Below, one piece after another: positions 77 through 20,956 of a stretch of 22,200 nt of DNA. How positions within the stretch are numbered: the stretch's first letter is position 1; each line of letters starts with the position of its first letter. The translations under genes and the position numbers were made by a program. The stretch lies in the IMG/VR virus record IMGVR_UViG_3300031673_000536, positions 1-22,200 of that record, one strand, 5' to 3'. The notes beneath the pieces are model-generated. The model made no database searches. It had not been told where the DNA came from and saw nothing but the letters and a program-made list of their open reading frames with translations. Origin of the DNA: a virus.

Positions 77-1000
77 TTATCTCCACAAATAGTTATTTGA
101 GACTAGTCTTTTTGGACTATCATCTGCTCTTGGTGTTACAAGAGTCGTAAATTTATCTTTCATGTCTTTATAGACATCAGCAGCTGCTTGGAGTCCTGTA
201 GTATCTCCAAGTCCTTCCATAATTTTAACTACAACTCTTTGTTCTAATAATTTATGAACTTCGTATGGTATTTGAACTAATGGTGCTTCGCCACTAATAC
301 AGACCCAGTCACCAACTTCTAGTCTTGTTGGTAATGGGGTATCGAACGTTATTTCTTGGGTAGTGACGTCTAATACTGTAGGAGTTTCATCATCTAGCAA
401 TGATTTAAAACCTGGTTTACCTTTAACTACATCAAATGTATCTGTGATGACCCAAGTATTTGGCATATGGTCTAATGTAATTTTGCCAGTTGCAGTGTCA
501 ATTATTGTTATCTTTCCACATGAAGAAGTACCGACCAAGTTGTTTGGTCTACGAAAATACTTCATCCTTATTTGATATTGTCCTAGTTCACTAGGATCTG
601 GAGATATGATTACGCTGTCATCTTGGAAAAAGAAGCCAGCTCTAAATTGTGATACGTGACCTAAATTTCTTCCATGACCATGTTTTAATTGATCAGGATT
701 AACTCTTGGCAAGCTAACTTCTTGTCCACTGGAATTTAATAGAACGACGTCTTTAAGTTTTCCGCCAATTGCACGATATGGAATAGCATATTCAGATACA
801 GAAGTATCTATTGCTTGATCATAATTGGTCAAGAAATAGTCTTCTTTAACTTGCATCAAAAGTGGAACAATATCTGATTGCAGTTCTTCAGACATCATTG
901 CCCTAATATCAGTATCTTGGTAAAGAAGCTGAGACGATGGGATGATTGCTCTTCTTTTAATGCTAGCTACATTTCCTACTACTGTAAAATCTACTGCCAT
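77..1000 (-). CDS. Head-tail adaptor / connector-like protein
   Basis: This 307-aa protein starts at ATG 1000 behind AAGAGGTT, a site that overlaps the stop of the preceding 114-aa gene. The N-terminal half (about 1-60) looks helical: a block IKRRAIIPSSQ near residue 14, then an acidic helix with EELQSDIVPLL. It is followed by IPYRAIGGKLKDV (about 73-85) and a beta-rich region with YFRRPNNLV. This order (helical opening, 'IP.RA.GGKL.DV', 'RRP') matches, from memory, a family of phage proteins placed between capsid and tail genes and annotated as adaptor or neck proteins. The likely role is to dock under the portal ring and receive the tail. The following gene also looks like a tail-tube protein. 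The exact family (P22 gp4-like or T7 gp11-like) cannot be fixed by eye. Confidence 0.6.
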   Translation of the reverse strand: MAVDFTVVGNVASIKRRAIIPSSQLLYQDTDIRAMMSEELQSDIVPLLMQVKEDYFLTNYDQAIDTSVSEYAIPYRAIGGKLKDVVLLNSSGQEVSLPRVNPDQLKHGHGRNLGHVSQFRAGFFFQDDSVIISPDPSELGQYQIRMKYFRRPNNLVGTSSCGKITIIDTATGKITLDHMPNTWVITDTFDVVKGKPGFKSLLDDETPTVLDVTTQEITFDTPLPTRLEVGDWVCISGEAPLVQIPYEVHKLLEQRVVVKIMEGLGDTTGLQAAADVYKDMKDKFTTLVTPRADDSPKRLVSNNYLWR

Positions 1001-1012
1001 GTTTTTAACCTC

Positions 1013-1357
1013 TTAGTCCATTAAATCTTCTTCTTTTTTCTTTCTTAAAATTTCTAAAAGAGAAGCAGTCATATCTTCATCATTGTCAAGTTTCATGTTG
1101 TCTTCGTCTTGTAACTTATTCTTTTCCATTTCATCAACTTGTTCAGGATCTTCACTCCAATGTTTCATCTCTTGAACGGCTTCCATCTCACTCTTTCCAT
1201 TGGGCATATCTTCTTTAGAAATACCAAATTCAGTAGGCGCTTTAGCAATTTCAATAGAAATTTTAGAATTACTTAGTCTACTACCAGTCATTTCTTCCAT
1301 GGCTTTGATCATGTTTTCTAAACTTCTTTTCTTTGGATCCATCATTTTATCGAACAT
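1013..1357 (-). CDS. Small acidic virion-operon protein, unknown function
   Basis: This 114-aa protein is very rich in Glu, Asp, Lys and Met, with no hydrophobic segment and no recognisable domain. It opens with MFDKMMDPKKRSLENMIKAM and ends in a Lys/Glu helix (LLEILRKKKEEDL). The composition suggests a mostly helical, soluble, possibly disordered chaperone-like or minor virion protein. ACAGGAG precedes the start codon at good spacing. The stop lies just before the adaptor start, so it belongs to the same transcript. Its start overlaps by 11 nt the end of a possible 28-codon ORF. I do not recognise a family. A fibre or adaptor assembly factor is possible from position only. Confidence 0.6.
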   Translation of the reverse strand: MFDKMMDPKKRSLENMIKAMEEMTGSRLSNSKISIEIAKAPTEFGISKEDMPNGKSEMEAVQEMKHWSEDPEQVDEMEKNKLQDEDNMKLDNDEDMTASLLEILRKKKEEDLMD

Positions 1358-1433
1358 TTAAATAGTCTCCTGTTTTGATTCTGTATGTTTTGTTTAATAT
1401 TGTTATAGTTTTATCATCTATTGGTCCAGACAT
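1347..1433 (-). CDS. Possible 28-aa small protein
   Basis: A short ORF runs from ATG 1433 to a stop at 1347, between the 955-aa fibre gene and the 114-aa gene, and overlaps the latter's start by 11 nt. The peptide starts MSGPIDDKTITILNKTYRI and ends GDYLNVR. Its alternating hydrophobic pattern resembles a beta hairpin and looks protein-like. A weak purine-rich GGATAGG lies 8-9 nt upstream. It may be a genuine tiny gene coupled to the 114-aa gene, or a chance ORF in a 118-nt gap. Nothing else in the gap explains its spacing. Confidence 0.3.
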   Translation of the reverse strand: MSGPIDDKTITILNKTYRIKTGDYLNVR

Positions 1434-1475
1434 CAACAGAACCTATCCTGGGTCACTCTGAACGCATCTGAAAGC

Positions 1476-4343
1476 TTAGTTCCGTCTGTAAGACATATAG
1501 AAAATTGCAGACCGAATAACTATTTCGTTACTTGCACTTTTGTTGACAGCTTGCAGTATTAATTCGTCTCCTGCTGTAACATTAGCATGAAGCGGAATTG
1601 ATACATTGACGTAATTGTTCGCTCCGGTGCCGGAAGCTCCCATATCATATCCTTCCTGCTTACTTTGCGTTATGTTCCAGACCCTAAAATCATAATCGTT
1701 CCCGTTACCCCCAGAGAATGTTATAGCCAAGTTACCGGTATAGTGACCAGAATTAGCTATGGTCATAGTTCCTTCGTACAGACTAAATCCATCGTATTCA
1801 TCACTATTCCATAAGGTGTGTGTTGCATTTTCAATGGTAGTCCAAACATTCTGAGCAAGAGATATTGGAATTAAAGCAGCTTGCGTCCCGCCGTAGATGT
1901 GCCAGCTATTGTCTCTTAAAATTCTGTGTGCTGTTATTGTTGACGAAATAATAGCCCCATTAACTTCTAATTTAACAGTTGGTTCTGTTGTGCCTATTCC
2001 AACATTACCGGATGGAAAGCACACTGAACTAATTGCGACATTAGCTCTTCCGACTTGCATGAAAGGAGCGAAAGAGTCATATGCATCATTAGTAGTCAAC
2101 CAAGACATTATGTTTCCATCTGCTTTCCATAACCAATTTTTATTATCTGTTGTTGCGTCATTTTCTTGCATTAAAAACTGGTCGCTATAGTTTGATATTT
2201 GGAATTTTGGATAAGTCAACGGAGCAGACATTCCTATAGCAAACGGACCACTTAAGCTCGGAATAGTTATGCTACTAACCGTTGCTCCTGCTCTATCAAT
2301 TCTGATTGCTGTTCCAAAAGAATCATACGCATCGTTCGCCACTAATAATGCGAAATAGTCTGCTCCGGCTTTCTGAGTCCACTGCTTCATGTCGTCTCCG
2401 GCATAATCATTCCGGATCATGAACTGATTGTCTCCGCCACCTACAGTAAGATTACAAGGAAGGAAACCATCAGTACTAATAGCAACTTTGTTTAAGAAGG
2501 TGCTACTTGAGGGATTAAATATCGCAACAGTCGTTCCTGCTCCAAGTGAATCACCAAAAGCAATAGACAGTGTTTTAGACGAAGGTCTAGATAAGAAAGT
2601 ATCTGTTCTTTCCCATCCGCCCTCTCCCAATTCCAATCTCATATATGGCCAAGAATTTAGTCTATAAATTGGCTCAGTGTCACCGTGCACAACAAATCCT
2701 TCCATTTGAGATCCACGAGACATACGTACAGAAGCAATTGTTCCTGAACTGTCGAAGATAAGAACAGGTCTTTCTGGCTGAGATTGATCAAATGATTGAT
2801 ATGTAAAGGCAATCATGTATTCACCAGCAATAGATGATGAAGAAATACCGCCGAAATGGAAGATCGGACGCTGAGTTAAATATCCATTCTCCCATCTAAT
2901 ACGAGAAGGTATTGTAGTTGTTGTTTTAAGCAAGATATTTTTGTTTTCCATGTGAAGACCTAAATCACCACCAGGATAACTATCAATATCTCCAGCACCA
3001 ATAACCATTCGTGCATCGCCATAAAGAACTACATGTGAAGACTGAACTATTTTACTGTTAAATTCAGATACAGCGTTAGCAGTAATAGAACTAGTAAAGA
3101 TGGTATGATTCTTAAAATCATTCATTCCAGTAAACGTATTGGTAGAATGCAAATATACAAATGTTCCAGAAGCTACAATTGCATCTAATTTTGCAGCAAC
3201 AGTTGACAAATTAATTGGAAAATTCGGCATATTTGTTGAAGTAATAGTTCCTACTACAGATAATGAAGAAATAGTAACTGGAACATTCATTGAAATTCCA
3301 GCAGTAGAAACTTTTAACATTTGAACGTAAGGAGTAGGAGCTGTAGAAGTAACTGGAACTAATTCTCCATAACCGCTTATATTATTTTGAACTCCAATAG
3401 TAGGATAATAGCCAAATGGATGACCTTCAGAAAGAGTAGAAAGATAAATACGATATGAATATCCTGTAGGATGTTGACCACCAGAACCGTTTGTATTCAC
3501 TTTAAAATGTTCAAATCCAGGATAAATAGCACCAGGATCTAAATTTGATACAGTGTAATTAGTAGATTCTCTTCCTTCTTCATCTAATACAGCAATAGTA
3601 ACGACCATTGTTTTACCTACCCAGTCAACTGCATCAAAGTCTCCTTGATTAGATGCTACTTGAATAGCAGAAGCAGTGAATGCTTTGATATTTTCGGTCT
3701 CTATTGTAACAGAAGATCTAAAAATAACAGGTTGAGTAAATTTAATAGGATTTCCTCTATAAACGTTAGCACCTAAATATGTAGCAGTTGCATTATAAAC
3801 AACTGATGGTAGAGTTGTAGTTGATGCATCTAAAGCATCAATTCTAGCATATGCATTAGTAATACTTGAGTTTAGGACGTTGTAAGTAGAAAGAATAGCT
3901 TCATAGATAGCAGTAGAACCTGAGATTAAGGTTCCATTAAAAACTAATTCATTTGATGGAGATGAAACAGATAAAGAAAGATTTGCACTATTAGTAGCAT
4001 TTCTCCAATTAATGACGTCTTTATTCCCCATTCTAATAGCACCAGTAGAAGCCACAGTTGAAGTAGTTAATTTGATGTAGGGAACTCTTAATCCATAATT
4101 TTCACCAAAATAAGCTTCGTTTGTGAGAGTAAATGTTCCACCTTTCTTCTGAAGCATTCCAGAAGTGACAGCAACTGCCCAATTCGTAGCATCTGCTCCC
4201 CACTCTTCATCATCAGTTTCTGGATAAGAATAAACAGAGTTATTAACATTGAGATTTTTGAATGCTGATGCAAATGTAGGTAGGACACAAACAAGTGCTA
4301 TAGATGAAAGAGCAATTGTGAATAGTTTCTTTATTAGTTTCAT
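1476..4343 (-). CDS. Large fibre-like protein with Sec signal peptide
   Basis: This 955-aa protein begins with a textbook signal peptide: K2-K6 charged, hydrophobic core about 7-22, and an AxA site (ASA, 25-27) followed by Phe. The mature part is Ser/Thr/Asn-rich and beta-rich, typical of trimeric fibres, with a short possible coiled segment near SITNAYARIDAL. Residues about 638-790 hold two related units of about 80 residues. Each has a DQF/NQF motif and NDAYDSF, and the second ends in GNVGIGTTEPTVKLEVNG, a signature common before the tips of phage fibres and bacterial adhesins. The last ~130 residues look like a C1q/TNF-type jelly roll (GHYTGN, AGDELILQAV). No S74-type chaperone ending is apparent. 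GC content rises from about 30% over the N-terminal half to 40-50% over the C-terminal part, as if the tip came from another source. It is probably an adhesin or receptor-binding fibre; the signal peptide is unexpected. Confidence 0.7.
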   Translation of the reverse strand: MKLIKKLFTIALSSIALVCVLPTFASAFKNLNVNNSVYSYPETDDEEWGADATNWAVAVTSGMLQKKGGTFTLTNEAYFGENYGLRVPYIKLTTSTVASTGAIRMGNKDVINWRNATNSANLSLSVSSPSNELVFNGTLISGSTAIYEAILSTYNVLNSSITNAYARIDALDASTTTLPSVVYNATATYLGANVYRGNPIKFTQPVIFRSSVTIETENIKAFTASAIQVASNQGDFDAVDWVGKTMVVTIAVLDEEGRESTNYTVSNLDPGAIYPGFEHFKVNTNGSGGQHPTGYSYRIYLSTLSEGHPFGYYPTIGVQNNISGYGELVPVTSTAPTPYVQMLKVSTAGISMNVPVTISSLSVVGTITSTNMPNFPINLSTVAAKLDAIVASGTFVYLHSTNTFTGMNDFKNHTIFTSSITANAVSEFNSKIVQSSHVVLYGDARMVIGAGDIDSYPGGDLGLHMENKNILLKTTTTIPSRIRWENGYLTQRPIFHFGGISSSSIAGEYMIAFTYQSFDQSQPERPVLIFDSSGTIASVRMSRGSQMEGFVVHGDTEPIYRLNSWPYMRLELGEGGWERTDTFLSRPSSKTLSIAFGDSLGAGTTVAIFNPSSSTFLNKVAISTDGFLPCNLTVGGGDNQFMIRNDYAGDDMKQWTQKAGADYFALLVANDAYDSFGTAIRIDRAGATVSSITIPSLSGPFAIGMSAPLTYPKFQISNYSDQFLMQENDATTDNKNWLWKADGNIMSWLTTNDAYDSFAPFMQVGRANVAISSVCFPSGNVGIGTTEPTVKLEVNGAIISSTITAHRILRDNSWHIYGGTQAALIPISLAQNVWTTIENATHTLWNSDEYDGFSLYEGTMTIANSGHYTGNLAITFSGGNGNDYDFRVWNITQSKQEGYDMGASGTGANNYVNVSIPLHANVTAGDELILQAVNKSASNEIVIRSAIFYMSYRRN

Positions 4344-4478
4344 TTTTAGGGTAACTCTCTCTATTGAATTGAAAATTTGTAGTGTATGTCAAAGTGACAT
4401 TGTCCCAACTCCCTACTGCCCAAGAACAGTTCCACAAGAACTATCCCTAACAGTAGAGAGTATGGAATTATCTTTTAA

Positions 4479-4527
4479 GTAGCTTTTCTTTTAGAAAGCT
4501 ACAGTTATCAGAATCTAGAGATTCTGA
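4479..4527 (-). other. Two tandem hairpins between decoration and fibre genes
   Basis: Just downstream of the 271-aa gene's stop on the minus strand lie two perfect inverted repeats. One is TCAGAATC/GATTCTGA at 4508-4527, with a 4-nt loop. The other is GTAGCTTT/AAAGCTAC at 4479-4502, with an 8-nt loop. Neither is followed by a clear U-run on the minus strand, so they are not classical terminators. They could be RNA-stability or processing elements separating abundant capsid mRNAs from fibre mRNA. The rest of the 185-nt gap (4344-4528) has further short hairpins and the GAGAGAG ribosome site of the fibre gene, but no ORF. Confidence 0.6.
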
Positions 4528-4528
4528 T

Positions 4529-5344
4529 TTACAGGTCGTTTGCTGCTGTGCGTTTGTAAGTATACTGAGTTCCTTCTGTACCACCAGTAAGTGCTGCAGC
4601 AGAAACACTTCCACGAGCGGAAATAGCCAATGTGCAGAGATTACCGATTTGTCCAGGAATAAGGCAATATACTAATACTGTATCTGATGCGATTGTTCCA
4701 TGAGCTGAATTTGCCAATTCAAGGTTATTAGGGGAGATGATTGTCAATACTCCAGCTGTTGAAGAAGAAGCGACTCCACTAAGAACACTTTCATAAGCTA
4801 CTGCTTGGTTAATAACAGCTGAGAGGTTTGCACCGGTCAGTGTATCAGTAGAACCAAGTTTGAATTCATAGATTCCCGAAGGAGAAGCTTTGCATGTGAA
4901 GACGATTCCATTGACTGTTACTGTGTCATCTGCTACCATCGCAGAAACAGTGCATGTTCCTTGTCTTTTCATTCCTAAGCAACCAACGATCTTTGCCGTT
5001 GTGTTGGCATTGATTACTGCTAATGCTGAATTGGCTGTGTTTTCATCACTTGTGCCAGTTTCAATCTGAACCTGACCAGTTGGTGTATCATCACCAGTAA
5101 CAGTTACTCCGTTAAGAGTAATAGTGTCTGCTGCCGCGAAGGAAGCAAAGGTGATATATCCAGAAGCTTGAACTGCTCCAAGATTCCAAACAATAGAACC
5201 ATCCTTATTTCCACCACCTAATGAACTGATAAAACCACCAAGTCTACCAACTGCGTTCTGATTTTCTGAAATACTATTGATGTCATTCTGAAGACTCGCA
5301 GAAGACTCAGAAGTCTGTATGCGAATTCTGTGCGTTGCACTCAT
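4529..5344 (-). CDS. Probable capsid decoration / beta-repeat virion protein
   Basis: This 271-aa protein, encoded directly after the major capsid gene, is Ala/Thr/Val/Gly-rich. A helical opening (about 1-50) is followed by two beta repeats. Repeat A (about 64-126) has DTITLNGVTVTG and later ALAVINANTTAKIV. Repeat B (about 132-256) has DTVTVNGIVFTCKA, LSAVINQAV, GQIGNLCTLAIS and ALTGGTEGT. The pattern 'dtvtvNGv.f ... a.aInan ... pG..GN...la ... LtGGt.g' is, from memory, a repeat seen in tail and decoration proteins of several phage groups. AGGAGAATTAAC precedes the ATG. There is no signal peptide. Position right after the capsid gene and similar composition favour an abundant decoration protein. 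A major tail protein is the alternative. Confidence 0.5.
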   Translation of the reverse strand: MSATHRIRIQTSESSASLQNDINSISENQNAVGRLGGFISSLGGGNKDGSIVWNLGAVQASGYITFASFAAADTITLNGVTVTGDDTPTGQVQIETGTSDENTANSALAVINANTTAKIVGCLGMKRQGTCTVSAMVADDTVTVNGIVFTCKASPSGIYEFKLGSTDTLTGANLSAVINQAVAYESVLSGVASSSTAGVLTIISPNNLELANSAHGTIASDTVLVYCLIPGQIGNLCTLAISARGSVSAAALTGGTEGTQYTYKRTAANDL

Positions 5345-5391
5345 GTTAATTCTCCTATACTGTTTTTATGTTTTAAATATAAAGATATGGT

Positions 5392-5421
5392 GGAGAGCAG
5401 GCAAGTTACCTCGCCTACTCC
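5392..5421 (-). terminator. GC-rich hairpin after the capsid gene
   Basis: About 20-45 nt past the capsid stop codon on the minus strand there is an imperfect GC-rich hairpin: GGAG plus AGGC on one arm, GCCT plus CTCC on the other, with a small internal bulge. It is followed by a moderately U-rich stretch (ATCTTTATATTT). In a low-GC genome this stands out as a probable weak terminator or processing site that sets the capsid mRNA apart from the genes downstream. There is no perfect U-tract, so read-through is expected. Confidence 0.45.
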
Positions 5422-5439
5422 CCATTCATACCTAATTGT

Positions 5440-6714
5440 TTATGCGTTTACGATGCCAGTGTACTTAAGGCACTTTGCGGGTGTCTCAATGTAGATTTGC
5501 TGGTCAGTCCATCCCTGATATTCATAGGTGTTGTAACCTTGAACTTTCGTGAATACTTCAGGATCACCGAATGGATTGTCGAAGCTAATGTCAGCAGAAC
5601 CAATTCTCTTCAGTTTCTTGAGAGGAAGAGCGAATGCTTCTCCTTCTTTAACAAGAGAATAAGGAACTACTTCAACTTCGGTTGCTCCACAGTAGAAACG
5701 AATAGCTCTGAAGCCATTCTTTCCGTCTGATAAGTCAGACGCTCCATACGTTCTAAGAGCAGCTTCGTCTGATACAAGACCAGAGAAAGTGCGATCGTTT
5801 ACGTAAAGAGTAACCTTTTCATCCAAACCTTTCGCGATAGGAAGTGCCAATCCATCCATTACTTTTTTAAGAGTAAGGGCTCCACCAACAGAGTAGGAAT
5901 TACCCTTCCACATGTTGTAGGTTGCAGCAGAGATGCCGAAAAGAGTTCCAGCATTCGTGATGATTTTGTCAATTCCGATCATTTCACGCCATACAGAAGC
6001 AGATGTACGAGCAGTATCAAAGTAGATGTCGCATGTTCCAGCACCAATTGCGATATCAAGAGCAGTGATTCCAGTTGTCGTACCAGCTACAGTGATTGTT
6101 CTATTCTCAACCGATACAGCGTCAATCGTGAAGATTGAATCTGCACCAGAAGAAGTAAGCGCACCAACTGAAGACCAAACCTGAATGGGACATCCACCTT
6201 CCATACCACCCCAAAGCTGTGAAGCCCAGGTTGCAGTCGTAAGTGTAATTATTGTGTGAGTAGTATCTACGTTAGAGGAACTAGATGTTTTACCAAGTCC
6301 AGTCTGTCCATAAAGAATAGCAATTTCAAGTCTCTTTGCAAGACTATTCATTGATTCAGTGACTGTATAGTCGATTGTTGATTTGTAAGTTACGTCGCCA
6401 GTGAGACCCTTTGAAAGAGCATCGTAGGTTACTTCGTTGCTGATAACCGTTGAGTATGAGTCAACTTCTGCTGTTCCGATGACTGGAGGAACTGAAGCGC
6501 GAAGCGCTGTTCTGCCAGATGAGGGTGCTAAGTACGTAATACCATGTGCATGTGTCAATGCAACGGGCTGTTTATATACTTCACCGATTTTTTCTGCTTT
6601 CGAGAAAGCAATCGCATCGATCAGTTTAGTGATGTCTGCGCGTACTTCCGCGAATGTTTTTGCGTAGCGGGTTTTAAATAACCCACCTAATTCTGTAATT
6701 GTTGCGGCTGCCAT
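5440..6714 (-). CDS. Major capsid protein (HK97-fold, inferred)
   Basis: I place the start at ATG 6714, giving 424 aa, because TAGGAGAAATT sits immediately upstream. An upstream in-frame ATG at 6771 has no comparable site and would add 19 unlikely residues. The protein opens MAAATITELGGLFKTRYAK. Early on it has a helical segment, then ALRASVPPVIGTAEVDSYS, in which most residues are small, typical of an extended arm. Further on it is beta-rich, with LYGQTGLGKTSSSS and a C-terminal VQGYNTYEYQGWTDQQIY. It follows the scaffold gene and matches the usual size of HK97-fold capsid proteins. Codon use and GC content (visibly above the early genes) fit a highly expressed gene. No obvious maturation protease lies nearby. 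Capsid identity rests mainly on composition, size and order. Confidence 0.8.
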   Translation of the reverse strand: MAAATITELGGLFKTRYAKTFAEVRADITKLIDAIAFSKAEKIGEVYKQPVALTHAHGITYLAPSSGRTALRASVPPVIGTAEVDSYSTVISNEVTYDALSKGLTGDVTYKSTIDYTVTESMNSLAKRLEIAILYGQTGLGKTSSSSNVDTTHTIITLTTATWASQLWGGMEGGCPIQVWSSVGALTSSGADSIFTIDAVSVENRTITVAGTTTGITALDIAIGAGTCDIYFDTARTSASVWREMIGIDKIITNAGTLFGISAATYNMWKGNSYSVGGALTLKKVMDGLALPIAKGLDEKVTLYVNDRTFSGLVSDEAALRTYGASDLSDGKNGFRAIRFYCGATEVEVVPYSLVKEGEAFALPLKKLKRIGSADISFDNPFGDPEVFTKVQGYNTYEYQGWTDQQIYIETPAKCLKYTGIVNA

Positions 6715-6945
6715 ATAATTTCTCCTAATTTTATTATGTGTGAGTTCGAATGCAATGCACTCTCTTCTCAATTTTAGTTTCTAACCATTTACCATCTTTG
6801 TAGTCTTTTTATGTTTCTTAGTGTGTAAATGCGTAGTTTAAAACGCGCATCGCAACGGAATTTAAAGGACTCTATTTCTCTAATTCTTAATCATTCATCC
6901 CTATTTCTAGAGGTAGAACGATATTTCCTTCAACTTAAATTTTTC
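6715..6945 (-). other. Leader region between scaffold and capsid genes
   Basis: This 231-nt stretch contains no convincing ORF; the longest start-to-stop reads are 10 codons or shorter. It holds the capsid ribosome site (TAGGAGA at about 6721-6727) and an inverted repeat ATGCG/CGCAT at 6829-6850. I see no matched -35/-10 pair. It probably serves as a long 5' leader giving the capsid message its own stability or promoter, but this is inference. Confidence 0.35.
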
Positions 6946-7902
6946 TTAATGTGTTGACAAATAATCTCTATATTCTGAAATTGTCATCTTCTGTTTAGGT
7001 TCAAGAGGTTTAACTTCTGCATCTAACTGAGCAGGTGGTTTATTTCTTGAAGGCACTTTCTTTAACTGTGCTGCCATCAATTTCTTAACTGTGTCTTCTC
7101 CAAGCATCTTTTCAAGGACATCACCATCACTTGATGAGAAGAGAGATTTAACATCATTCATGTAATCTCTACGAACCAACTCAACAACATCTTTAGCTTT
7201 TACATTTTCAAAGCGCTTATCACCTGTTCTTAAGTACTCATTGTAAGCTGAGAGCATATAATGAGCAAGTCTTTTAACTGTGTAGTCACTCTTTGGAAGA
7301 CCAGATGTTTCTAATGTTTCCATTACATCTTTAGTATTTTCTTCTTCGTAGTACTTAATTAATTGCTGTTGTTCGGCCTGAGTTCTTTGTTCTAATTCTT
7401 GTTTACGTTCTGCTTCTAGCTTAGAAAGTTTTGCTTTTGTATCTTCAGCATCTCTCTGTTCAGGAGTTAAAGTCTCTCTTTCTATTTCTTTAGAGATATA
7501 CTCTGTTGCCAGTTTCTTGAAGTCTAACCCTAATCGAGGATCTGTCAAAATAGACATTGGATCTTCTCTTAGAAGTTTAACAAGCAATTCTGACTGTTGT
7601 CTCATTGTTGCTGCTTCTTTGAATTTCTGATCTGCACCAACACCCTTCTGAGCGAACTGAAGAGCTTGATCTAATGTAACATTAACCATCTTGCCATTTA
7701 CTTTTAAGGTATAGGGCTTATTTGGATCTGCTGCATTAGGATCTTTCTTAATGCCTGCGTCTTTAATGTCTTTTGCTTCGGCTTTTGAAGCAGGATCTAC
7801 TATAGCATTAGGATCTTTAACTTCCGGTGCTACAACTGCCTCTGGTGCTTTAACTTCAGGTGCCGCTACTACTGGTGCTACTACTGCGATATTATCTGGC
7901 AT
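6946..7902 (-). CDS. Capsid scaffolding protein
   Basis: This 318-aa protein is charged and helical, encoded directly upstream of the capsid gene, the standard place for a scaffold. Residues 1-60 are Ala/Pro/Val/Lys-rich with imperfect repeats (APEVK, VAPEVKDPNA), so probably disordered. A small conserved-looking block YTLKVNGKMVNVTLDQALQFAQKG (split about 64-87) is a feature I associate with phage scaffold/minor capsid proteins. Residues about 138-190 form a strong coiled coil rich in Glu/Gln/Lys. The C-terminus is basic to mixed (KKVPSRNKPPAQ, PKQKMTISEYRDYL), as expected for a capsid-binding tail. AGGAGAGAG precedes the start. A TGTGTC/GACACA hairpin (7933-7953) lies just upstream in the leader. 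The role would be to guide procapsid assembly and then leave. Confidence 0.75.
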   Translation of the reverse strand: MPDNIAVVAPVVAAPEVKAPEAVVAPEVKDPNAIVDPASKAEAKDIKDAGIKKDPNAADPNKPYTLKVNGKMVNVTLDQALQFAQKGVGADQKFKEAATMRQQSELLVKLLREDPMSILTDPRLGLDFKKLATEYISKEIERETLTPEQRDAEDTKAKLSKLEAERKQELEQRTQAEQQQLIKYYEEENTKDVMETLETSGLPKSDYTVKRLAHYMLSAYNEYLRTGDKRFENVKAKDVVELVRRDYMNDVKSLFSSSDGDVLEKMLGEDTVKKLMAAQLKKVPSRNKPPAQLDAEVKPLEPKQKMTISEYRDYLSTH

Positions 7903-7986
7903 TTTAATTCTCTCTCCTATTGATTTTTATAGTGTGTCATTTATATAGACACAATAACTAACTGAGATTTTATTTACTACTTGCTA

Positions 7987-10041
7987 TTATGGACGACCTG
8001 TGTAATAACTCTTAACGTTCGTGGGAGTATTTGAACTTGAAACAACGTTCAATCTCAGCCAACGATAGTTTACATTTCCAAGATCAGCTGATGTTGAACC
8101 AGTGACATTCATTGAAATTGGAGTCGTTGCGTTTGTCCAATTTGCTGAGTCATTCGAAACCTGCCAAGTTGCAGAACTTAAACCAGTAGTTGATAAGTTT
8201 GCATTTGCTCCATAAAGAAGAGGAGTAAGAATGAAGTTACCTTCACCAGTTGAAAGAGTAACGGGTGTGAATGCTACGTTTGTTCCTGCTACTGCATTAC
8301 TAGGAGTTGTTGCAAGTTTGAAGACTTCTGCAACAGGTGTCTTGATAACGAAGTAGGTCGTATTAACTGTCAAAGGAGGCTGAACTCTTCCAGTTGAAGA
8401 TGTTAATAGAACTGCCATTCCAGTTGTGAATAGATTTGATTTAACAATTCCAGAAGAAGTGTTAATATCAGAAGCTAAACCATTTTCGAAATACTTCCAT
8501 GCACTATATGGATAAGAACCAGCAGCAGTGTATGAATTAGTAGAACCTTGAAGTGTTAGTGCTGCCTGTGTCGAAGTAGTTACGATGTACTCGTTCTTAT
8601 TGATCTGAGTTGATGTCACATAAACAACTGCATAACTTCCACCTGTGAAGCTTGCATTCAATACTGTGAATGAAGAAGCAGCTGGATTAAATGACAACCA
8701 GTAGTTATTTGGTGTCTGACCAAGCGTAGTAGACCACATATCAATATAGTCATCGGTAATAGAAGGTGCAGTTGCTATGATTAAGCCAGAGCTTGCTAAT
8801 GCAGTAGAAAGAGCTACCATTGTCGCATGGCTTGTTCCAAGAACTCTCCATTTATGTCCTCCACCTTCGGGGTAGTTTGTTCCATAGAAAGAAACAGTAG
8901 AACCAATTACGCCAGTCATTGAAGTGATATAGAGTCTGTTATAAGCATAAGCTGCAGGAATCCACGTAGAGATAACAATCTGTTTTAAACCATTGTTAGC
9001 CATCAATGCTTCTGAAAGTGCCTTAGCAGCATAAGAAGAGAATTGAACTTGTGTAGCTGTCCAATCTTTTCCGTTTTCAAATGCAAACTGATTGATCTTT
9101 AAGATTGCAGGATTTCTACCATCACGGAAATAACCAGTAGTTGTAGATACGTCTGTTGCTAATGCTGACTGAGTACTAGATAAGAGAGTAAAATAGTTAC
9201 CAATCGTTCCATATTTAAGAGCAGTAAATGTAACTTTAGTTCCATTTGCTGTTACTGCTACTCCATATGTAGAGAAATTAAGAGAAGAAGCTATTCTTGT
9301 TGCTGTGATACCATCTGATGCAATATCTACACCAAAGTCGATTCCTGCTTTTAATCTCTGACCATTCAATATTAGCTGAGCTCTCTTGTCCCATCCAAAT
9401 GAAAGAGTAGGATAAGCAATAGTTAGTGCAGCAGGAGTTGCTGATACTATAGAATAAGAACCGTTTGTTGCTTGACCATACTCATCTGCTACAATTTTAA
9501 CAATATTAAAACCAGTTGCAGTTGCTGTTAATGGAAGAGTAGAGGCATTGATACTTGCTGCAATATTCGTAGCAGTTAAAGCTGACGTTGTTCCCGAAGA
9601 CCAATCAATACCATTGACAAACCAGACACCGCTAATTGAGAAAGAAGAACTACCAAGTGTTTCTGTTTTGCAAGGATTTGAAGATACAGTTAAGAAACTA
9701 TATGCTCCAGTAGGAATTAGTGCTGTCGTTACTAATACTTGAAGAGTACAAACTGCTGGGGCACTTGAAAGCATCGTCGCAGAAGAAACAGTAATAGCAG
9801 CTGTAGATTGTCTACCATCAGTGAAATTGATAGCAGAAGCAGTTGCAGCAGTAGTGTACACAAGTTGAACCGAAACTCTCTCTGTCTTATCTGCATTTAA
9901 ATCTATAACATGACCCGTATCTGAATAACATTTTGCATTCTCATCTGTTGTTTTATAAACTGCTGAAAAACAGGTACTAGCACTTAGTGCTAATACTGCT
10001 AACGCAGTCAGCGATACTTTCTTAATTCTCGATTTTAACAT
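7987..10041 (-). CDS. Large beta-repeat protein with signal peptide, in the virion operon
   Basis: This 684-aa protein sits between the portal/endonuclease and scaffold genes. It begins with a charged n-region (K3, R5, K7, K8), a hydrophobic core (LTALAVLALSAS) and a likely cleavage zone near 22-27. C24 is not in a good lipobox. The body is Ser/Thr/Ala/Asn-rich. At least three related units occur: about 134-210 (FVNGIDW ... TATNIAASINAS ... GSYSIVS), about 222-305 (LILNGQRL ... ATRIASSLNFS ... YGTIGNYFTLLSS) and about 312-390 (LKINQFAF ... NGKDW). They share the 'NG..w..G.Dw ... A..Ia.sIn.s ... G..GNy..l.S' pattern, also present in the 271-aa protein. The C-terminal ~60 residues (WQVSNDSANW, YRWLRLNV) look like a separate beta sandwich. 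AGGAGAG precedes ATG. Function unknown: exported adhesin or decoration, or a virion spike with a misleading N-terminus. Confidence 0.65.
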   Translation of the reverse strand: MLKSRIKKVSLTALAVLALSASTCFSAVYKTTDENAKCYSDTGHVIDLNADKTERVSVQLVYTTAATASAINFTDGRQSTAAITVSSATMLSSAPAVCTLQVLVTTALIPTGAYSFLTVSSNPCKTETLGSSSFSISGVWFVNGIDWSSGTTSALTATNIAASINASTLPLTATATGFNIVKIVADEYGQATNGSYSIVSATPAALTIAYPTLSFGWDKRAQLILNGQRLKAGIDFGVDIASDGITATRIASSLNFSTYGVAVTANGTKVTFTALKYGTIGNYFTLLSSTQSALATDVSTTTGYFRDGRNPAILKINQFAFENGKDWTATQVQFSSYAAKALSEALMANNGLKQIVISTWIPAAYAYNRLYITSMTGVIGSTVSFYGTNYPEGGGHKWRVLGTSHATMVALSTALASSGLIIATAPSITDDYIDMWSTTLGQTPNNYWLSFNPAASSFTVLNASFTGGSYAVVYVTSTQINKNEYIVTTSTQAALTLQGSTNSYTAAGSYPYSAWKYFENGLASDINTSSGIVKSNLFTTGMAVLLTSSTGRVQPPLTVNTTYFVIKTPVAEVFKLATTPSNAVAGTNVAFTPVTLSTGEGNFILTPLLYGANANLSTTGLSSATWQVSNDSANWTNATTPISMNVTGSTSADLGNVNYRWLRLNVVSSSNTPTNVKSYYTGRP

Positions 10042-10072: not shown

Positions 10073-10630
10073 TTAAATTGTGGCTAAATAGTGTTGATCC
10101 ATTCTTTTACATTCTCGTTTTAGTTGCCAAATTCTTGCATTTGCTTTATTAATAGCTATCTGGACTTCTTTTGTCTTAGGTTTCATTACAAAACCAGCTA
10201 AACGCCTAGACTGCTTGTATTTAACAGATAAAACACCATTTTTGTTTCCAAACATCTTCAAACGTATCTTTTGTTTAGTTTCTTCTGATGATTTCCTTTT
10301 TCTCATTTTTGCTTTTGTTTCTTCAGAGTGTTTATAACCGAGTGTAGTATTCCCACCATCAACTATATTATAACCTATTGGAACTTTAGAATTTAATTCT
10401 TTAATCCAAAATATCTCTCTTTCATTTAATTGTTCAATAGGAACTTCTTCTATTATTTCACGCTTAAAGTTTTGAAGTCCATGTTTTTTAATTGCCGGTT
10501 TAATTAATTTTCCACTACCATAGTATTTACTTTTTTCAAACTTCTTTCTATCTAACTTACTTAAACCAATATAAATCTTTCCATTCACTAAATTCGTTAT
10601 CTTATAAATTTCTCCTGTGTGCAGTTTCAT
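10073..10630 (-). CDS. GIY-YIG homing endonuclease with NUMOD3 motifs
   Basis: This 185-aa protein has the GIY-YIG nuclease core at its N-terminus: GEIYKITN (6-13) and YIG (20-22), KYYGSGKLI, then the general-acid region LNEREIFWI with the expected Glu near 72. Residues about 98-123 carry two NUMOD3-type DNA-binding motifs (GYKHSEETKAKM and KSSEETKQKI). The tail is basic. It is a free-standing homing endonuclease inserted between the portal gene (stop at 10634) and the 684-aa gene. It would cut an allele lacking it and spread by repair. No Shine-Dalgarno is visible ahead of its ATG, so translation is probably weak or coupled to portal termination. The nuclease family call is firm; the target is unknown. 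Confidence 0.85.
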   Translation of the reverse strand: MKLHTGEIYKITNLVNGKIYIGLSKLDRKKFEKSKYYGSGKLIKPAIKKHGLQNFKREIIEEVPIEQLNEREIFWIKELNSKVPIGYNIVDGGNTTLGYKHSEETKAKMRKRKSSEETKQKIRLKMFGNKNGVLSVKYKQSRRLAGFVMKPKTKEVQIAINKANARIWQLKRECKRMDQHYLATI

Positions 10631-10633
10631 AAT

Positions 10634-12610
10634 TTAAATTGTTGGCATTTTTGGCATTGAAGGCATTCTTACTTCTCGAGCTTTTTCTACTACTGGAGGT
10701 ACACTTGAGAGCGTCTCACTATTTCCCTTTAGATCGCCAACCGCTTGGGGTTGAGGTACTTGTGCAGGTACAACAGGAGGAGGTGGTTCTTTAAGCAACA
10801 TTAAGAGCGCAGGATCTGCACTCTTCCATAAATTGATATGCTCTAAAATGTGATTCATGGTATTTGTGACTGCTTCAGCATTCTCTCTTGACATTGGTGA
10901 AGCCAATACTGATTTGTGTTCTATAACGTGAATTGAGTGGTTATCTGTTCTAACTGCAATAACTGGTTTTCCTTCAGACAACTGTTCATTCTCTGACTTG
11001 ATAAGCATTAATTCTGCTTGCTGGCCTTCAATTAAAGGTTCAAGCCTTCCTGTAGTTAATACTTGAATATATTCGGCTGGGTTCTTAATTAAACCAGCAG
11101 TTAAGAGATTGTCTGCCATATTAACTTTACCTGCAGTTGTCTTTGAAAGAGGATTACCAACATCTACAATCACTCTATTTACATTAGAAATATCTTTCGA
11201 TGTAAACTCTTTTGCATAAGAAGCATTATTAACTCCTGATATTTCTATCATTCTAGGAGTCTGAGCATTTGCTTTCAAGATGTTGATAAGACCAAGACCA
11301 AGTTTTTCTAATAAATTAGTGTATGACTGTTGCAAACCAGAGTTGAATTGGATTGCCATTGATTGAACAAGGGCAAGAGCAGAACCTGACTTTAAAGAAG
11401 GTTCTGGATTTCCTCTAGCAACGCTGTTGATTCCTGAAATAGTTTCCATCCTTGATTCTAATGTAGCAATGAAGTTAAAAATCTCTGGAGGAGTATTTGT
11501 TAGATTCAAAGATTCAGGTTTAGGAAACTGGGGATCATAATAAATAGCATTGAGTCCATCCATGATCTCTACTGGAGAAAGCGAAGAACCTTTTGGAAGA
11601 ACAATAGACTGAACTCCGAAACTGCTCTGATTTGTCAAAACAGTAGAATATAGAACGTTGATTGCTTCTTGTTCTGCTGCTAAGTCAAATGCAACTGTGT
11701 AACCAAAAGAGGTTCCAGTTTGCTTGCTTCCTCTAATATGATAAACAGGAAAGTCTTGATAAAATTCTGGAAGTGGAGCATCTATTAAATAAGTATCATT
11801 AGCAACACAAGTAAAGAATCTTCCATCTGGTAAAGCATCTGTTCTTCTATGAATGAAGATGTAAACTGGGACATAATCTGAATCATATCCAAAATTAGAA
11901 TTGAAAGCATTTATTGAATGTCTATAACTACCTTCTAATTGAATAAGCTTATCTTTTAATTCTGGGTATCTTTCAACTAAATTCCATTTGTTCTGCCAGT
12001 CTCTTAATATCACCCATTCTGATTCACTATCATGAAAACCTGCAGTAAAATCTATAATGACATCTAAAGGAGTGTAATTCTTATGAAGTACATCACCTTG
12101 CTTGATCATCTTCTGTGTTTCTGGGTCGACCATATAAGGATCACCCAATGAGAAGTCCCATCCTTGATAAACGAAAGCATCTGCAAAGACTAGAACATCT
12201 TCAACTGCTTGCTTAGTGTAATTTTCTAATCCTTTACTTCTTGTGTAATAGTCTAAAATGTTGTTGGCTACTTTTGTTTGAGCTAAACTCTTATAATCAT
12301 TAGTGGAGGCTCTTGCATCAAAAGCTGGGCGTTGGTTGGTTGTTAATTGAAGGATGTGTGTTAAAAGGTTTCTGAAGTGATTGATCTCAAGTCTCTTATA
12401 TTCACCTTGTTCTCCAACTGTTGAAACGCTTGCTCCATTTAAAGCACCTGAATTATAAAGTTTGTAAGTTTGGCGATAAAGATTAAGACGTCCTGACGCA
12501 GATAAATATCGATCATATGCATCGACTTTATTTAATACCTGTTTTGCGAGTTCTGCTGGATCTTCGCTTGCAAAATATTTATCTTTTGATGAAGTATTGC
12601 CGGTATTCAT
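10634..12610 (-). CDS. Portal protein
   Basis: This 658-aa protein starts at ATG 12610, overlapping the TerL stop by one base (TAATG), the usual coupled terminase-portal arrangement. It has a helical N-terminus, then HILQLTTNQRPAFDARA (about 85-101) and AVEDVLVFADAFVYQGWD (about 135-152), features shared by P22-like portals. It continues with a stem/crown-like region with SGINSVARGNPEPSLKSGSA and a long C-terminal helix, ending in a Pro-rich tail (PPPPVVPAQVPQPQ) that may be disordered. Length falls in the range of large podovirus portals. Twelve copies would form the vertex ring through which TerL pumps DNA and to which the adaptor at 77-1000 attaches. Identification is strong from order and motifs. 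Confidence 0.88.
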   Translation of the reverse strand: MNTGNTSSKDKYFASEDPAELAKQVLNKVDAYDRYLSASGRLNLYRQTYKLYNSGALNGASVSTVGEQGEYKRLEINHFRNLLTHILQLTTNQRPAFDARASTNDYKSLAQTKVANNILDYYTRSKGLENYTKQAVEDVLVFADAFVYQGWDFSLGDPYMVDPETQKMIKQGDVLHKNYTPLDVIIDFTAGFHDSESEWVILRDWQNKWNLVERYPELKDKLIQLEGSYRHSINAFNSNFGYDSDYVPVYIFIHRRTDALPDGRFFTCVANDTYLIDAPLPEFYQDFPVYHIRGSKQTGTSFGYTVAFDLAAEQEAINVLYSTVLTNQSSFGVQSIVLPKGSSLSPVEIMDGLNAIYYDPQFPKPESLNLTNTPPEIFNFIATLESRMETISGINSVARGNPEPSLKSGSALALVQSMAIQFNSGLQQSYTNLLEKLGLGLINILKANAQTPRMIEISGVNNASYAKEFTSKDISNVNRVIVDVGNPLSKTTAGKVNMADNLLTAGLIKNPAEYIQVLTTGRLEPLIEGQQAELMLIKSENEQLSEGKPVIAVRTDNHSIHVIEHKSVLASPMSRENAEAVTNTMNHILEHINLWKSADPALLMLLKEPPPPVVPAQVPQPQAVGDLKGNSETLSSVPPVVEKAREVRMPSMPKMPTI

Positions 12611-14088
12611 TATTTCCTTCTACCACCACTAAATATATTTTTAATAGCTTTTTCTGTAGTTGTCAGCTGCGATTTATCTCTTGGATCTCTAAAATAATTT
12701 GCTTTCTCTATTCCAAAGTCTTTTGGAATTGGATTCGTTGTTTGATCAATACTTAATGCTAAATAAATCAATGCTGCTAAATGATCAAAGTGCCCAAGTT
12801 CTTCACTTCTGTCAAAACCATCTCTTTTATTATTCCAAACTCCGTATTTTAAACAACCGATCAAACCTTTACATCTAGGAGATACGATAATTCTTCCTGC
12901 TGCAACCATCACCCTTAGATTATTAATCATTGCATCTAATGTGGTCTTTCTTACTGTTGAAAAATATAGTTGGTATGTCGAACCTAAATCTTGAACTAGT
13001 TGTAGAGCATTATCTGATATTCTATTCGGAGTTTGAAGTCCTTCGAATTTAAGTTCTTTTTCTTTTGCTTTAATCTGAGCAGCTAGTTTTTCGGTTGTCA
13101 TTTGAGGCCCATTCATCTGAGTCTCATCTAATATAACTAATGCTGCTCTTTTAAAGTCATAGTACCCATAAATTCCAGCAGTTAAATCTTTTACTCCAAC
13201 ATCTAAACCAACATATCTCTTATAGAACTGAGTGTATTCATCTGGAACAATATCTTTTGCCAATTCGTCTTTCCACTCTGGGATAATACTATAATTTGTA
13301 TCTACTACGAACTGACAAAGATACTGAGACTTCCAAGTTGTTGATTCTGGTCCGCCTGCTTTCTCACAGAATTTCTGAATTCTGTCTGCAGGATATTCTG
13401 TTTCATAGATGCTATACTCTGAGTAGTTGTTTGCTGCTTGTGCTTCTTTTACATACTCCATACATTCATGAACTGGAGTCTTAGGTGGAGTCATTAAGAT
13501 CCAAAACTGTCCGTTTGTAGAAAGAAGTTGAGGCATTAAAACTGTGTCAACTACATACTTAAGGCGCTTAATACCTTGAGCTTCATCTACAATACAAAGA
13601 TCCGAAGCATTTCCTAATAAATCATCTTCATGACCACCATTACAACCTGCGATATGAAGTTCTGAACCTGTTGATGGGAAGTAATACTTTCCATCGAAAC
13701 CTTTCCAAAGTGGTCTAAGATCTGAAGGAGCACCCTCACAAATTCTCTTCATGATGGGTTGAATAATATTCTTAACCTGTTTCTGAGTAAGAGCTGCAAA
13801 CCTAATTAGTGCATTATTATTCTTGAGTGCAAATTCTGTAGCTTTAGTTAATGCCGTTGAAGTCTTTCTAGATCTTCTTGAACAGTTTAAAAGCTTAATC
13901 CCTGTAGAAGCACTGCTTAAATTTTCTGCCATCTTCTTCTGAACTGGCCAAAATAAATAACTTAAATCTGCTTTACGCCAATACTTTTCTATTTCAACAG
14001 GTGAAAGAGTATTTTCTATAGACTGCCTTCTAAACTTAGAAGCTAGTTCCTTTAGTGCTTGAGAAATCTGAGAAGTATGTTGAGCCAT
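12610..14088 (-). CDS. terL: Terminase large subunit (ATPase plus nuclease)
   Basis: This 492-aa packaging motor has an N-terminal ATPase and a C-terminal RNase H-like nuclease. The Walker A-like motif is CSRRSRKT (69-76), unusual because Arg replaces the Gly before the Lys. Walker B is LCIVDEAQ (164-171), and the coupling motif is ILMTPP (197-202). Nuclease acidic residues lie in YVGLDVG (D296), ISDNAL (D359) and GHFDHLAALIYL (D435). Length and order match the family. It docks on the portal encoded immediately downstream and is preceded by two small genes and the TerS candidate. The altered phosphate-binding loop deserves attention, though RRxxKT-type loops vary among terminases. Functional call is firm. 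Confidence 0.93.
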   Translation of the reverse strand: MAQHTSQISQALKELASKFRRQSIENTLSPVEIEKYWRKADLSYLFWPVQKKMAENLSSASTGIKLLNCSRRSRKTSTALTKATEFALKNNNALIRFAALTQKQVKNIIQPIMKRICEGAPSDLRPLWKGFDGKYYFPSTGSELHIAGCNGGHEDDLLGNASDLCIVDEAQGIKRLKYVVDTVLMPQLLSTNGQFWILMTPPKTPVHECMEYVKEAQAANNYSEYSIYETEYPADRIQKFCEKAGGPESTTWKSQYLCQFVVDTNYSIIPEWKDELAKDIVPDEYTQFYKRYVGLDVGVKDLTAGIYGYYDFKRAALVILDETQMNGPQMTTEKLAAQIKAKEKELKFEGLQTPNRISDNALQLVQDLGSTYQLYFSTVRKTTLDAMINNLRVMVAAGRIIVSPRCKGLIGCLKYGVWNNKRDGFDRSEELGHFDHLAALIYLALSIDQTTNPIPKDFGIEKANYFRDPRDKSQLTTTEKAIKNIFSGGRRK

Positions 14089-15410: not shown

Positions 15411-16070
15411 ATGTCAAACAAAACTGCCTATCAAATGAAAAACATTCAAAACATGCCAAAAATCAGCTGTGTTTATGAACTTCTAGCCAAGAAAGGGAGC
15501 ACAACAAAACACTACATCGGAAGTACACTAAATCTGCGAGAGAGAAGTTATAGACATTTCTATAGATTTAAAAACAATAAGCAAACTAAAAAATTGCAAA
15601 AAGACTGGGATAATGGATTCCAATTTAGCATTCAAGTGTTGCAAGTTGTAGATAATCCACAAGATTCTACTTTAGAAGCTAATGAAAAAAAGTGGACTGA
15701 CAAGATGATCAAAGAATTCGGTCAGGATAGAGTTTATAATAAATTAAGAGTTTTTAGAAATGTAGTAACTGAAACAAGGAAACTTCATCAGAAAGAAAAT
15801 CATGCTTATTATTGGTTAGGAAAAAAGGGTCCAGATGCTCCAATGTATGGACATCAGCACACAGAAGAAACAATAAAACTTATGCAAGAAGCTCATAGAG
15901 GTAGAAATAATCCAATGTGGGGAAGGTTTGGAACTAAAATAGTCAATAGAGTCGAATACCCTTTTTGCAAACACGGACACTTAAGAACACCAGAAAATCT
16001 GATGAAGAATCAAAGAAACTGCAGATTATGCTATGAGAACAAGAAAAAGTCTAAAAGTATAGGTATATAA
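15411..16070 (+). CDS. GIY-YIG endonuclease with NUMOD3 and C-terminal zinc motif
   Basis: This 219-aa protein has a GIY-YIG core: SCVYELL (19-25), YIGST (35-39), NLRERSYRH with candidate catalytic Arg (43-51), and LEANEKKW with the likely general-acid Glu (about 88-95). A NUMOD3-type motif (HTEETIKLMQEAHRG, about 150-164) and a NNPMWGR motif follow. The end carries CKHGH ... C..C (C186, H188/H190, C204, C207), a zinc site also found at the end of phage HNH and GIY nucleases. It is the first rightward gene, beneath the masked ribosome site. The architecture is that of a free-standing homing endonuclease. It differs clearly from the one at 10073-10630, so it is not a recent duplicate. Confidence 0.85.
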   Translation: MSNKTAYQMKNIQNMPKISCVYELLAKKGSTTKHYIGSTLNLRERSYRHFYRFKNNKQTKKLQKDWDNGFQFSIQVLQVVDNPQDSTLEANEKKWTDKMIKEFGQDRVYNKLRVFRNVVTETRKLHQKENHAYYWLGKKGPDAPMYGHQHTEETIKLMQEAHRGRNNPMWGRFGTKIVNRVEYPFCKHGHLRTPENLMKNQRNCRLCYENKKKSKSIGI

Positions 16071-16100
16071 TAGAATTATACATAGGAGGTGATAAACCAA

Positions 16101-16274
16101 ATGAGAAAAGTTAAATGTCAATACAGAAACTGCAGAATAGTCATGAAAAACCCACTTACAAAATTTGGAATTGAAAGAAAGTATTGTTGCACCAATCATG
16201 GAGTGTATGAAGGAATTTATAAATGGCGTGAACGTGAAAGAGCTAAAAAAATTGCTAAATTACTAGGAGAATAA
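16101..16274 (+). CDS. Small zinc-binding-like basic protein
   Basis: I choose ATG 16101 (57 aa). TAGGAGGTGAT, a near-perfect Shine-Dalgarno, ends 10 nt before it, whereas a GTG at 16089 lies inside that site. C6, C11, the CC pair at 29-30 and H33 form a likely zinc knuckle (CQYRNC ... YCCTNH), followed by a very basic helix (KWRERERAKKIAKLL). This resembles short single-knuckle phage proteins that bind nucleic acid or act as host-takeover factors. A TATAAT at 16066-16071 lies just upstream without a clear -35. The unusually strong ribosome site predicts high early expression. Function unknown. Confidence 0.65.
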   Translation: MRKVKCQYRNCRIVMKNPLTKFGIERKYCCTNHGVYEGIYKWRERERAKKIAKLLGE

Positions 16275-18962: not shown

Positions 18963-19215
18963 ATTAAACTTAACGATGGCAGGAATTAGAGTTGAGATAG
19001 ATAAGATTTGTGAAGAAAGAATAAAAGTACTTTCTAACATTTGTTCCAAGAAGATAGAGAAACTTGAAGAAACAGAATACCAACAATTAGCTCTATCTCA
19101 AATGGCTGCGCAACAAACTTACCAGCCAGGATTAGGAGCATATGGTAATCTTGGTTCATTAGGCTTCGGATCTGCTTTAGGCAATATTTTCCAAGGACCA
19201 ACGAATAGGCGGTAA
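18859..19215 (+). CDS. Hypothetical protein with overlapping start
   Basis: Two starts are possible. ATG 18859 (118 aa) has AGAGGT 8 nt upstream but would overlap the 125-aa gene by 104 nt. ATG 18976 (79 aa) avoids overlap but has no visible ribosome site. The first 39 residues of the long form look like a shadow of the neighbouring frame, with clustered Leu and Arg. From MAGIRVEIDKIC onward the protein looks natural: a charged helix (EERIKVLSN ... KKIEKLEE) and then a Gln/Gly/Leu-rich low-complexity tail (GLGAYGNLGSLGFGSALG). Function unknown; the Gly-rich end suggests a flexible tail. Confidence 0.5.
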   Translation: MIQQQTLHLLPQFKYLKMRLALPLLGRKKRLRKIELNLTMAGIRVEIDKICEERIKVLSNICSKKIEKLEETEYQQLALSQMAAQQTYQPGLGAYGNLGSLGFGSALGNIFQGPTNRR

Positions 19216-19221
19216 ACATAT

Positions 19222-19419
19222 ATGGCAATAAAATTAACGAAAGCTACTTGCTTTGAAAAATGGAAAGTGTTTGATGGATGTAGTTCTGGTCTTAATTATT
19301 ACATTGGTCCAAAACATGGAAGACTTATTGTCGCCGAATATCTTACAAAAGAAGAAGCAGTCGCTGCATTAGAAATGAAAGGCTGGCTAATGGAATATTT
19401 AGAAATAAAGGAGAAATAG
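19222..19419 (+). CDS. Small hypothetical protein
   Basis: This 65-aa protein has an alternating beta/helix layout: CFEKWKVFDGCSSGLNYYIG, then LIVAEYLTKEEAVAALEMKGWL, ending EIKEK. The form 'W.vfDG...G..YYIGP.hGR.IvaeyLTkeEA' looks like a small compact fold seen in phage hypothetical proteins. GGCGGTAAACAT is the weak upstream site. It ends 3 nt before the HAD phosphatase start, and its end carries that gene's AAAGGAG. No enzyme motif seen. Confidence 0.55.
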   Translation: MAIKLTKATCFEKWKVFDGCSSGLNYYIGPKHGRLIVAEYLTKEEAVAALEMKGWLMEYLEIKEK

Positions 19420-19422
19420 AAA

Positions 19423-20906: not shown

Positions 20907-20956
20907 CTCCCTAACTCAGATTTATCTCCTTTCCTGGGTTAGGGAGCCTTTTTATT
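20907..20956 (+). terminator. Rho-independent terminator of the rightward genes
   Basis: A 12-bp stem pairs CTCCCTAACTCA (20907-20918) with TGGGTTAGGGAG (20935-20946) across a 16-nt loop, followed by CCTTTTTATT. The one imperfect position is a U-G wobble in plus-strand RNA but a C-A mismatch in minus-strand RNA, which marks it as built for rightward transcripts. It sits between convergent genes and stops the early unit before it runs into the lysis cassette. Confidence 0.85.

Follow-up and report, generated by a model that had tools for sequence, protein, structure and literature searches.

A tail-fibre orthologue and a second large protein of a phage virion operon bear predicted Sec signal peptides

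A tail fibre that appears to be made as a Sec preprotein is encoded in the virion operon of the viral record IMGVR_UViG_3300031673_000536. The 955-aa product of this gene (1476-4343, minus strand) is, judging from its sequence and position, an orthologue of the tail-fibre gene found between the capsid and adaptor genes, and its predicted signal peptide stands directly in front of the residue at which signal-less fibres begin. A second gene of the operon (7987-10041, minus strand; 684 aa) also starts with a Sec-type signal. Tailed-phage virion assembly is held to be cytoplasmic, and we accept the point, raised in an earlier note on this DNA, that Sec signals conflict with it; both large open reading frames described there were present at these coordinates.

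The window and its late block

The window analysed here spans the whole IMG/VR record (22,200 bases) and is probably a fragment, since no repeats were found at its ends. Its early block runs rightward and its late block leftward, the latter with the transcription order terminase, portal, GIY-YIG endonuclease, 684-aa protein, scaffold, major capsid protein, 271-aa protein, 955-aa protein, 114-aa protein and adaptor. On the minus strand, the gene for the large terminase subunit (12610-14088) matched phrog_7579 and Terminase_6N weakly and belongs to a family found in 103 loci. The portal gene (10634-12610; 106 loci) matched phrog_156 with an E value of 3e-15, by which the window would be classed as a podovirus with a P22/SU10-type portal; its P22_portal match (5e-5) fell below the gathering score. 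The putative scaffold (6946-7902) was recognised by position and by homologues in 64 loci, and the major capsid protein (5440-6771; 56 loci) by phrog_14242 (E 6.7e-6). The capsid gene probably starts at the ATG near 6714, which has AGGAG upstream, and not at the listed TTG at 6771. Adjoining it is the gene for the 271-aa protein (4529-5344; 28 loci), syntenic in relatives and a candidate head decoration protein. The adaptor or connector gene (77-1000) matched SU10_adaptor below the cut-off (E 0.002) and belongs to a family found behind the fibre gene in 24 loci. No signal peptide was seen on the portal, scaffold, 271-aa or adaptor proteins. Family support is thus good for the portal and capsid and weak for the terminase and adaptor, but dozens of viral contigs have homologues with this gene order, so that the virion module is settled despite the weak families. 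The earlier placement of both large genes inside a virion operon is borne out.

The only close relative found was IMGVR_UViG_3300031999_000204 (L002), with a portal 58% identical to that of the window; the next portals lie at 49% or less. The best match of the window portal among isolates was that of a Silvanigrella phage (30% identity), in whose gene list no homologue of the fibre N-terminal module was found, and scans of genome contigs with the portal and the 684-aa family returned no prophage or cellular relative. L002 has homologues of both large proteins at corresponding places, both with signal peptides: a 450-aa protein starting MKKFAKVLMTVGALILPGLVYG.. between portal and scaffold, and a 912-aa fibre starting MKKFLIGFVTMLAMGIGLARA^YQT behind the capsid gene. 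Directly behind this fibre lie two tandem paralogues (18993-19400 and 19367-19804) with signal peptide scores of 7.7 and 9.8, the former below the range of known signal peptides; they gave no family match, and their position would suit an exported fibre chaperone. Further on, the first half of a 275-aa ORF of L002 (20910-21737) resembles the 117-aa holin-like protein of the window (20955-21308; E 4.5e-16), and its second half has a signal-like stretch and an outer-membrane beta-barrel-like end (..GFGLNTGIKF), a hint that the host may be diderm.

Homing endonucleases have been inserted repeatedly beside the signal-bearing genes of these two phages. The GIY-YIG gene of the window (10073-10630, between the portal and 684-aa genes) gave SegE_GIY-YIG and NUMOD3 matches, and a second GIY-YIG-type gene was recognised by eye at 15411-16070; L002 has, in place of the window's GIY-YIG gene, an HNH gene (15707-16177) between capsid and fibre.

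A fibre orthologue with a signal peptide added before its first residue

Signal peptides were scored with a home-made scorer based on n-region charge, the hydrophobic core and the (-3,-1) residues. In a trial, 15 known signal peptides scored 8.2-12.0 and seven other proteins at most 7.9, a narrow separation (lowest signal peptide 8.2 versus 7.9 for the highest non-signal protein, a membrane protein). The 955-aa protein begins MKLIKKLFTIALSSIALVCVLPTFASA^FKN, with predicted cleavage at ASA^FKN, and its signal (residues 1-27; 4263-4343, minus strand) scored 12.2, the highest value among 1430 genes of at least 100 aa from the pooled loci; none of 2000 composition shuffles reached it. The 684-aa protein begins MLKSRIKKVSLTALAVLALSASTCFSA^VYK, the exact cleavage point being uncertain, and its signal (approximately residues 1-27; 9961-10041, minus strand) scored 9.7. 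Taken alone this second signal is the weaker case, because 7 of 2000 shuffles reached its score and an internal window of the same protein scored 10.0, above its own N-terminus; it is backed by signal peptides on both known homologues, of 450 aa in L002 and 571 aa in a further contig, L115. The Sec-type signals that the earlier note had read on both proteins were recovered with this reservation for the 684-aa protein, and both N-termini have the positive n-region, hydrophobic core and AxA-type site of predicted Sec/signal peptidase I preproteins. A lipoprotein signal was rejected, as the 955-aa protein has no Cys near the site and SAST-C24 of the 684-aa protein does not fit the L-[AS]-[GA]-C lipobox.

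Among 551 genes of at least 300 aa with complete 5' ends, 12 rows scored 8.5 or more, which came to eight genes once duplicate loci were removed; large signal-bearing genes are therefore rare in these phages. Seven of the eight are treated here. The remaining one, a 776-aa gene of L072, was discounted: its start is internal, at codon 57, and probably false, which makes the signal a likely false positive.

In 30 additional viral contigs there are matches to residues 30-140 of the 955-aa protein, with identities of 34-57%. For most pairs the similarity stops near residue 140, and the homologues range in total length from a few hundred to more than 1800 residues; a common N-terminal module followed by a variable distal part corresponds to the build of phage receptor-binding proteins, with the module on the virion side. 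The module (residues 28-140; 3924-4262, minus strand), likely the virion anchor from its architecture and synteny, is 34-56% identical between the window and the other members of a 29-sequence alignment (A5). Residues 141-955 (1476-3923, minus strand) would form the variable shaft and tip; they gave no family match, include GNVGIGTTEP-type repeat text and putatively end in a beta-rich tip. The variable parts of signal-less orthologues match tail-collar, tail-fibre, tail-protein and virion-structural families. Pfam, PHROGs and NCBIfam offered no credible family for the 955-aa or the 684-aa protein, searches of PDB sequences were empty or returned chance matches, and among phage isolates there were no homologues of the fibre module, the 684-aa protein or the L002 and L115 fibres. 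A monomer AF2 model of the anchor module reached medium confidence (pLDDT 71); in a fold search it had no PDB match and one BFVD match, an uncultured Caudovirales protein 47% identical to it.

The locus agrees with the module. The order terL-portal-scaffold-MCP-271-fibre-adaptor is kept in about 25 relatives, to which the window corresponds over 77-6771 with the 955-aa gene in the fibre slot; in about 25 contigs the fibre gene, sometimes in two copies, lies between the capsid (and 271-aa) genes and the adaptor. The YPE-WG N-terminal module, with its conserved P, W-G, GGxF, FG and R columns, is present in the window protein, which keeps all 11 invariant columns. Fibres of the YPE-WG family start their module at the initiator Met without a signal peptide, and here a signal peptide of 27 residues precedes it. 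We take this signal, from the comparison of sequences, as a derived feature of the window clade and as no reason to deny fibre orthology.

The placement of the signal is precise. The other fibre homologues, where their start could be read, open with M-[ST/A]-[VIP] right at the module, none of them with a signal peptide, and the predicted mature residues F28 of the window and Y22 of L002 align with Met1 of 27 signal-less fibres, so that cleavage would restore the ancestral N-terminus in two proteins whose signal peptides have diverged. Both signal-bearing fibres keep every one of the 11 columns that do not vary among the 29 sequences, which is what continued use of the anchor would lead one to expect; such purifying retention favours a virion role, short of proof. 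The module tree joins window and L002 with support of 96/91 and the portal tree with 100/99, and in both the pair is nested among signal-less lines, which makes a single gain of the signal peptide the simplest history. The earlier note had proposed that absence of these N-termini from related phages would speak against export; most relatives do lack them, but the signal is a precisely placed, clade-specific gain, and L002, the nearest relative, keeps a signal peptide on both genes, so their absence elsewhere does not refute it.

The gene in the window also appears to have lost any signal-less start. Between codons 2 and 62 there is no ATG, GTG or TTG, and the first in-frame start after the initial ATG is codon 63, inside the module; a fibre with an intact module and no signal peptide is therefore impossible by ordinary initiation, and we discarded an internal start as a source of signal-less fibre in the window. 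The L002 fibre has in-frame starts at codons 9, 11, 12 and 14 within its own signal peptide, so a truncated signal is possible there.

The 684-aa family and other signal-bearing fibre-like genes

The mature 684-aa protein (7987-9960, minus strand) consists of repeated beta-rich domains and is a putative fibre or decoration protein; its AF2 model had a pLDDT of 31. Three members of its family are known (window, L002 and L115), all with signal peptides. L115 (IMGVR_UViG_3300036766_000242) is unrelated to the window by portal and has a lambda-like portal match and a Mu gpT-like capsid match, both weak. Its member of the family (571 aa) lies directly behind the capsid gene, and the profile of the signal-less 271-aa family matched the L115 protein with an E value of 7e-14, in a three-sequence search with strong composition bias. 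The same profile matches the window and L002 members weakly; hhalign gave a value of 87%. With moderate trust, we regard the family as probable exported relatives of a phage structural domain; the origin of the 684-aa protein is less clear than that of the fibre, being linked by this weak profile similarity to a capsid-adjoining phage family. The next gene of L115 encodes a fibre-like protein of about 929 aa with its own signal peptide (MKKGLFIAGFFLIGFLGVAFG^DVAP).

Further cases lie elsewhere. L121, with an HK97-type portal (PF04860, 3e-83), encodes between portal and gp6-like connector a 1104-aa protein in which a signal peptide (10.7) is combined with a Phage Tail Collar domain (PF07484, 2e-17). 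In the interval from fibre to adaptor, L089 encodes a signal-bearing C1q-domain protein of 594 aa (9.7), and L087 a 606-aa protein 28% identical to it with a weaker signal (7.3). Signal-bearing fibre-like genes are thus found in the head operons of at least three unrelated backbones. It is possible, if doubtful, that these cases make up a class of tailed phages with Sec-exported receptor-binding fibres, periplasmic maturation and docking at lysis, with separate origins in window/L002, L115, L121 and L087/L089.

Two other gene products were observed in these contigs. Between the portal and the Collar-domain fibre of L121 is a 688-aa collagen-like protein with GPRGxxG repeats (2139-4205). A family of about 245 aa occurs in larger relatives, for example in the terminase-portal gap of L036 (9218-9976) and also in L027, L042, L043, L045, L048, L049, L055, L060, L080 and L081; its charged, hydrophobic N-terminus, either signal-like or a membrane anchor, is followed by [AG]P-x-x-H/K-x-x-Y-x-R.

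Export of the fibre, rival readings and known systems

The reading to which we lean, tentatively and at somewhat less than an even chance, is that a podovirus-like phage uses the 955-aa protein as its tail fibre, the receptor-binding protein, and makes it as a Sec preprotein that would be exported, cleaved, folded outside the cytoplasm and docked at or after lysis. An ancestral cytoplasmic fibre would have gained a signal peptide exactly before its first residue in the lineage of window and L002. Host Sec would export the chain and signal peptidase I remove the signal, giving back the ancestral N-terminus and with it an anchor that works. The fibre would fold, perhaps as a trimer, outside the cytoplasm (in the periplasm if the host is diderm) and attach to completed particles, either as the compartments mix through holin, endolysin and lysis or outside the cell. 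The 684-aa protein would be another exported protein, again a fibre or else a decoration protein. For T4, and for the tailspikes of P22, it is established that fibres can join particles late, when these are complete in other respects, and can do so in mixed lysates as well; the attachment step would therefore not need the cytoplasm. In vitro complementation in T4 lysates has been described (PMC3004832, PMC9576892). Against this reading, fibres of such size would have to escape proteolysis in the periplasm once exported, and it would be unusual for attachment to take place only at the moment of lysis. Both window and L002 are also incomplete, so another, signal-less fibre may lie in the missing part.

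Of the three options in the earlier note, a fibre added outside the cytoplasm seems to us to fit best, and the others have to be weighed with the same evidence. The canonical signal peptides on the 955-aa protein, the 684-aa protein and their L002 homologues would also be expected of an exported adhesin, present on the cell surface or in the medium during infection with no need to be in the virion, which would occupy receptors on the infected cell, debris and neighbours and so prevent superinfection or wasted adsorption of progeny. The binding domains of a fibre would recognise the receptor of the host itself, and L002 has further small signal-bearing proteins beside its fibre. We consider such a receptor blocker unlikely, however: the virion-type N-terminal module, needless in a pure surface adhesin, is fully kept, the gene occupies the virion fibre slot with no second fibre adjoining, and inspection by eye showed no lipobox, autotransporter or sortase type of surface anchor. 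A single exported pool that blocks receptors while infection lasts and supplies virion fibres once the cell has lysed would reconcile export with the retained module, but it assumes two functions, and we think it improbable.

The ambiguous cleavage site of the 684-aa protein, and the fact that cleavage of the fibre is a prediction, leave room for an uncleaved N-terminus that would keep the fibre attached to the inner membrane, either so that assembly takes place at the membrane or so that the fibre can insert into a membrane when the next cell is infected. This is very improbable in our estimate, since the AxA sites are in textbook position and the exact restoration of the ancestral N-terminus in two diverged proteins would then be a coincidence. 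Signal peptides and adhesin-like repeats, and a 684-aa protein without homologue in the genomes or phage isolates searched, had suggested that the virion operon carries, as cargo, complete surface genes taken from a host; this is hardly credible now, and for the 955-aa protein the option is not supported, because its mature N-terminus is a phage fibre module at the same locus in about 25 relatives. The 684-aa family, for its part, was found only in three phage contigs, near capsid or portal, and has the weak match to the 271-aa phage family. That the N-termini are signal-like by chance and the proteins cytoplasmic is equally hard to credit: the scorer is home-made and an internal window of the 684-aa protein scores as high as its N-terminus, but the fibre signal ranks first of 1430 genes, beyond every shuffle, and signals occur on four of four genes in two phages despite diverged signal sequences.

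Comparison of this fibre with its signal-less counterparts at the same locus makes the place of fibre addition directly testable. If fibres are fitted outside the cytoplasm, this bears on fibre folding, self-adsorption and superinfection exclusion, and on the use of signal peptides in sorting viral from cellular genes in metagenomes.

Among known systems, the signal-less orthologous fibres (L035, L040/L098, L083-L113) share with the window fibre the module of about 110 aa, the position from MCP/271-aa to adaptor and the variable C-terminus, and differ in that they start with MSV or MAV at the module, whereas window and L002 have signal peptides of 21-27 aa. The P22/SU10-type podovirus head-tail module is alike in its P22-like portal (phrog_156), SU10-like adaptor and gene order; to our knowledge, P22/SU10-type fibres and tailspikes are made and used without Sec signals. 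The 1104-aa protein of L121 likewise joins a signal peptide to a fibre-type domain inside a head/portal operon, but in an unrelated phage with an HK97-type portal and without the shared N-terminal module. Signal-bearing bacterial DGR target adhesins are also exported variable binding proteins, but cellular ones; in a survey, phage DGR targets were without signal peptides, and this absence was used as support for phage origin (PMC6199706). Our literature search, with subscription papers mostly outside its scope, returned no report of Sec signals on tailed-phage fibres. Phage proteins known to carry Sec signals are endolysins with signal peptides, spanins and the coat proteins of filamentous phages. 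One such endolysin has been reported (PMC8951688). These proteins have a phage-encoded Sec signal in common with the window fibre, but they serve lysis or membrane-extruded filamentous virions and are not tailed-phage fibres. Phage-borne Sec signals are thus already known, and what is new here is a tail fibre that, as predicted from its sequence, has the form of a Sec preprotein.
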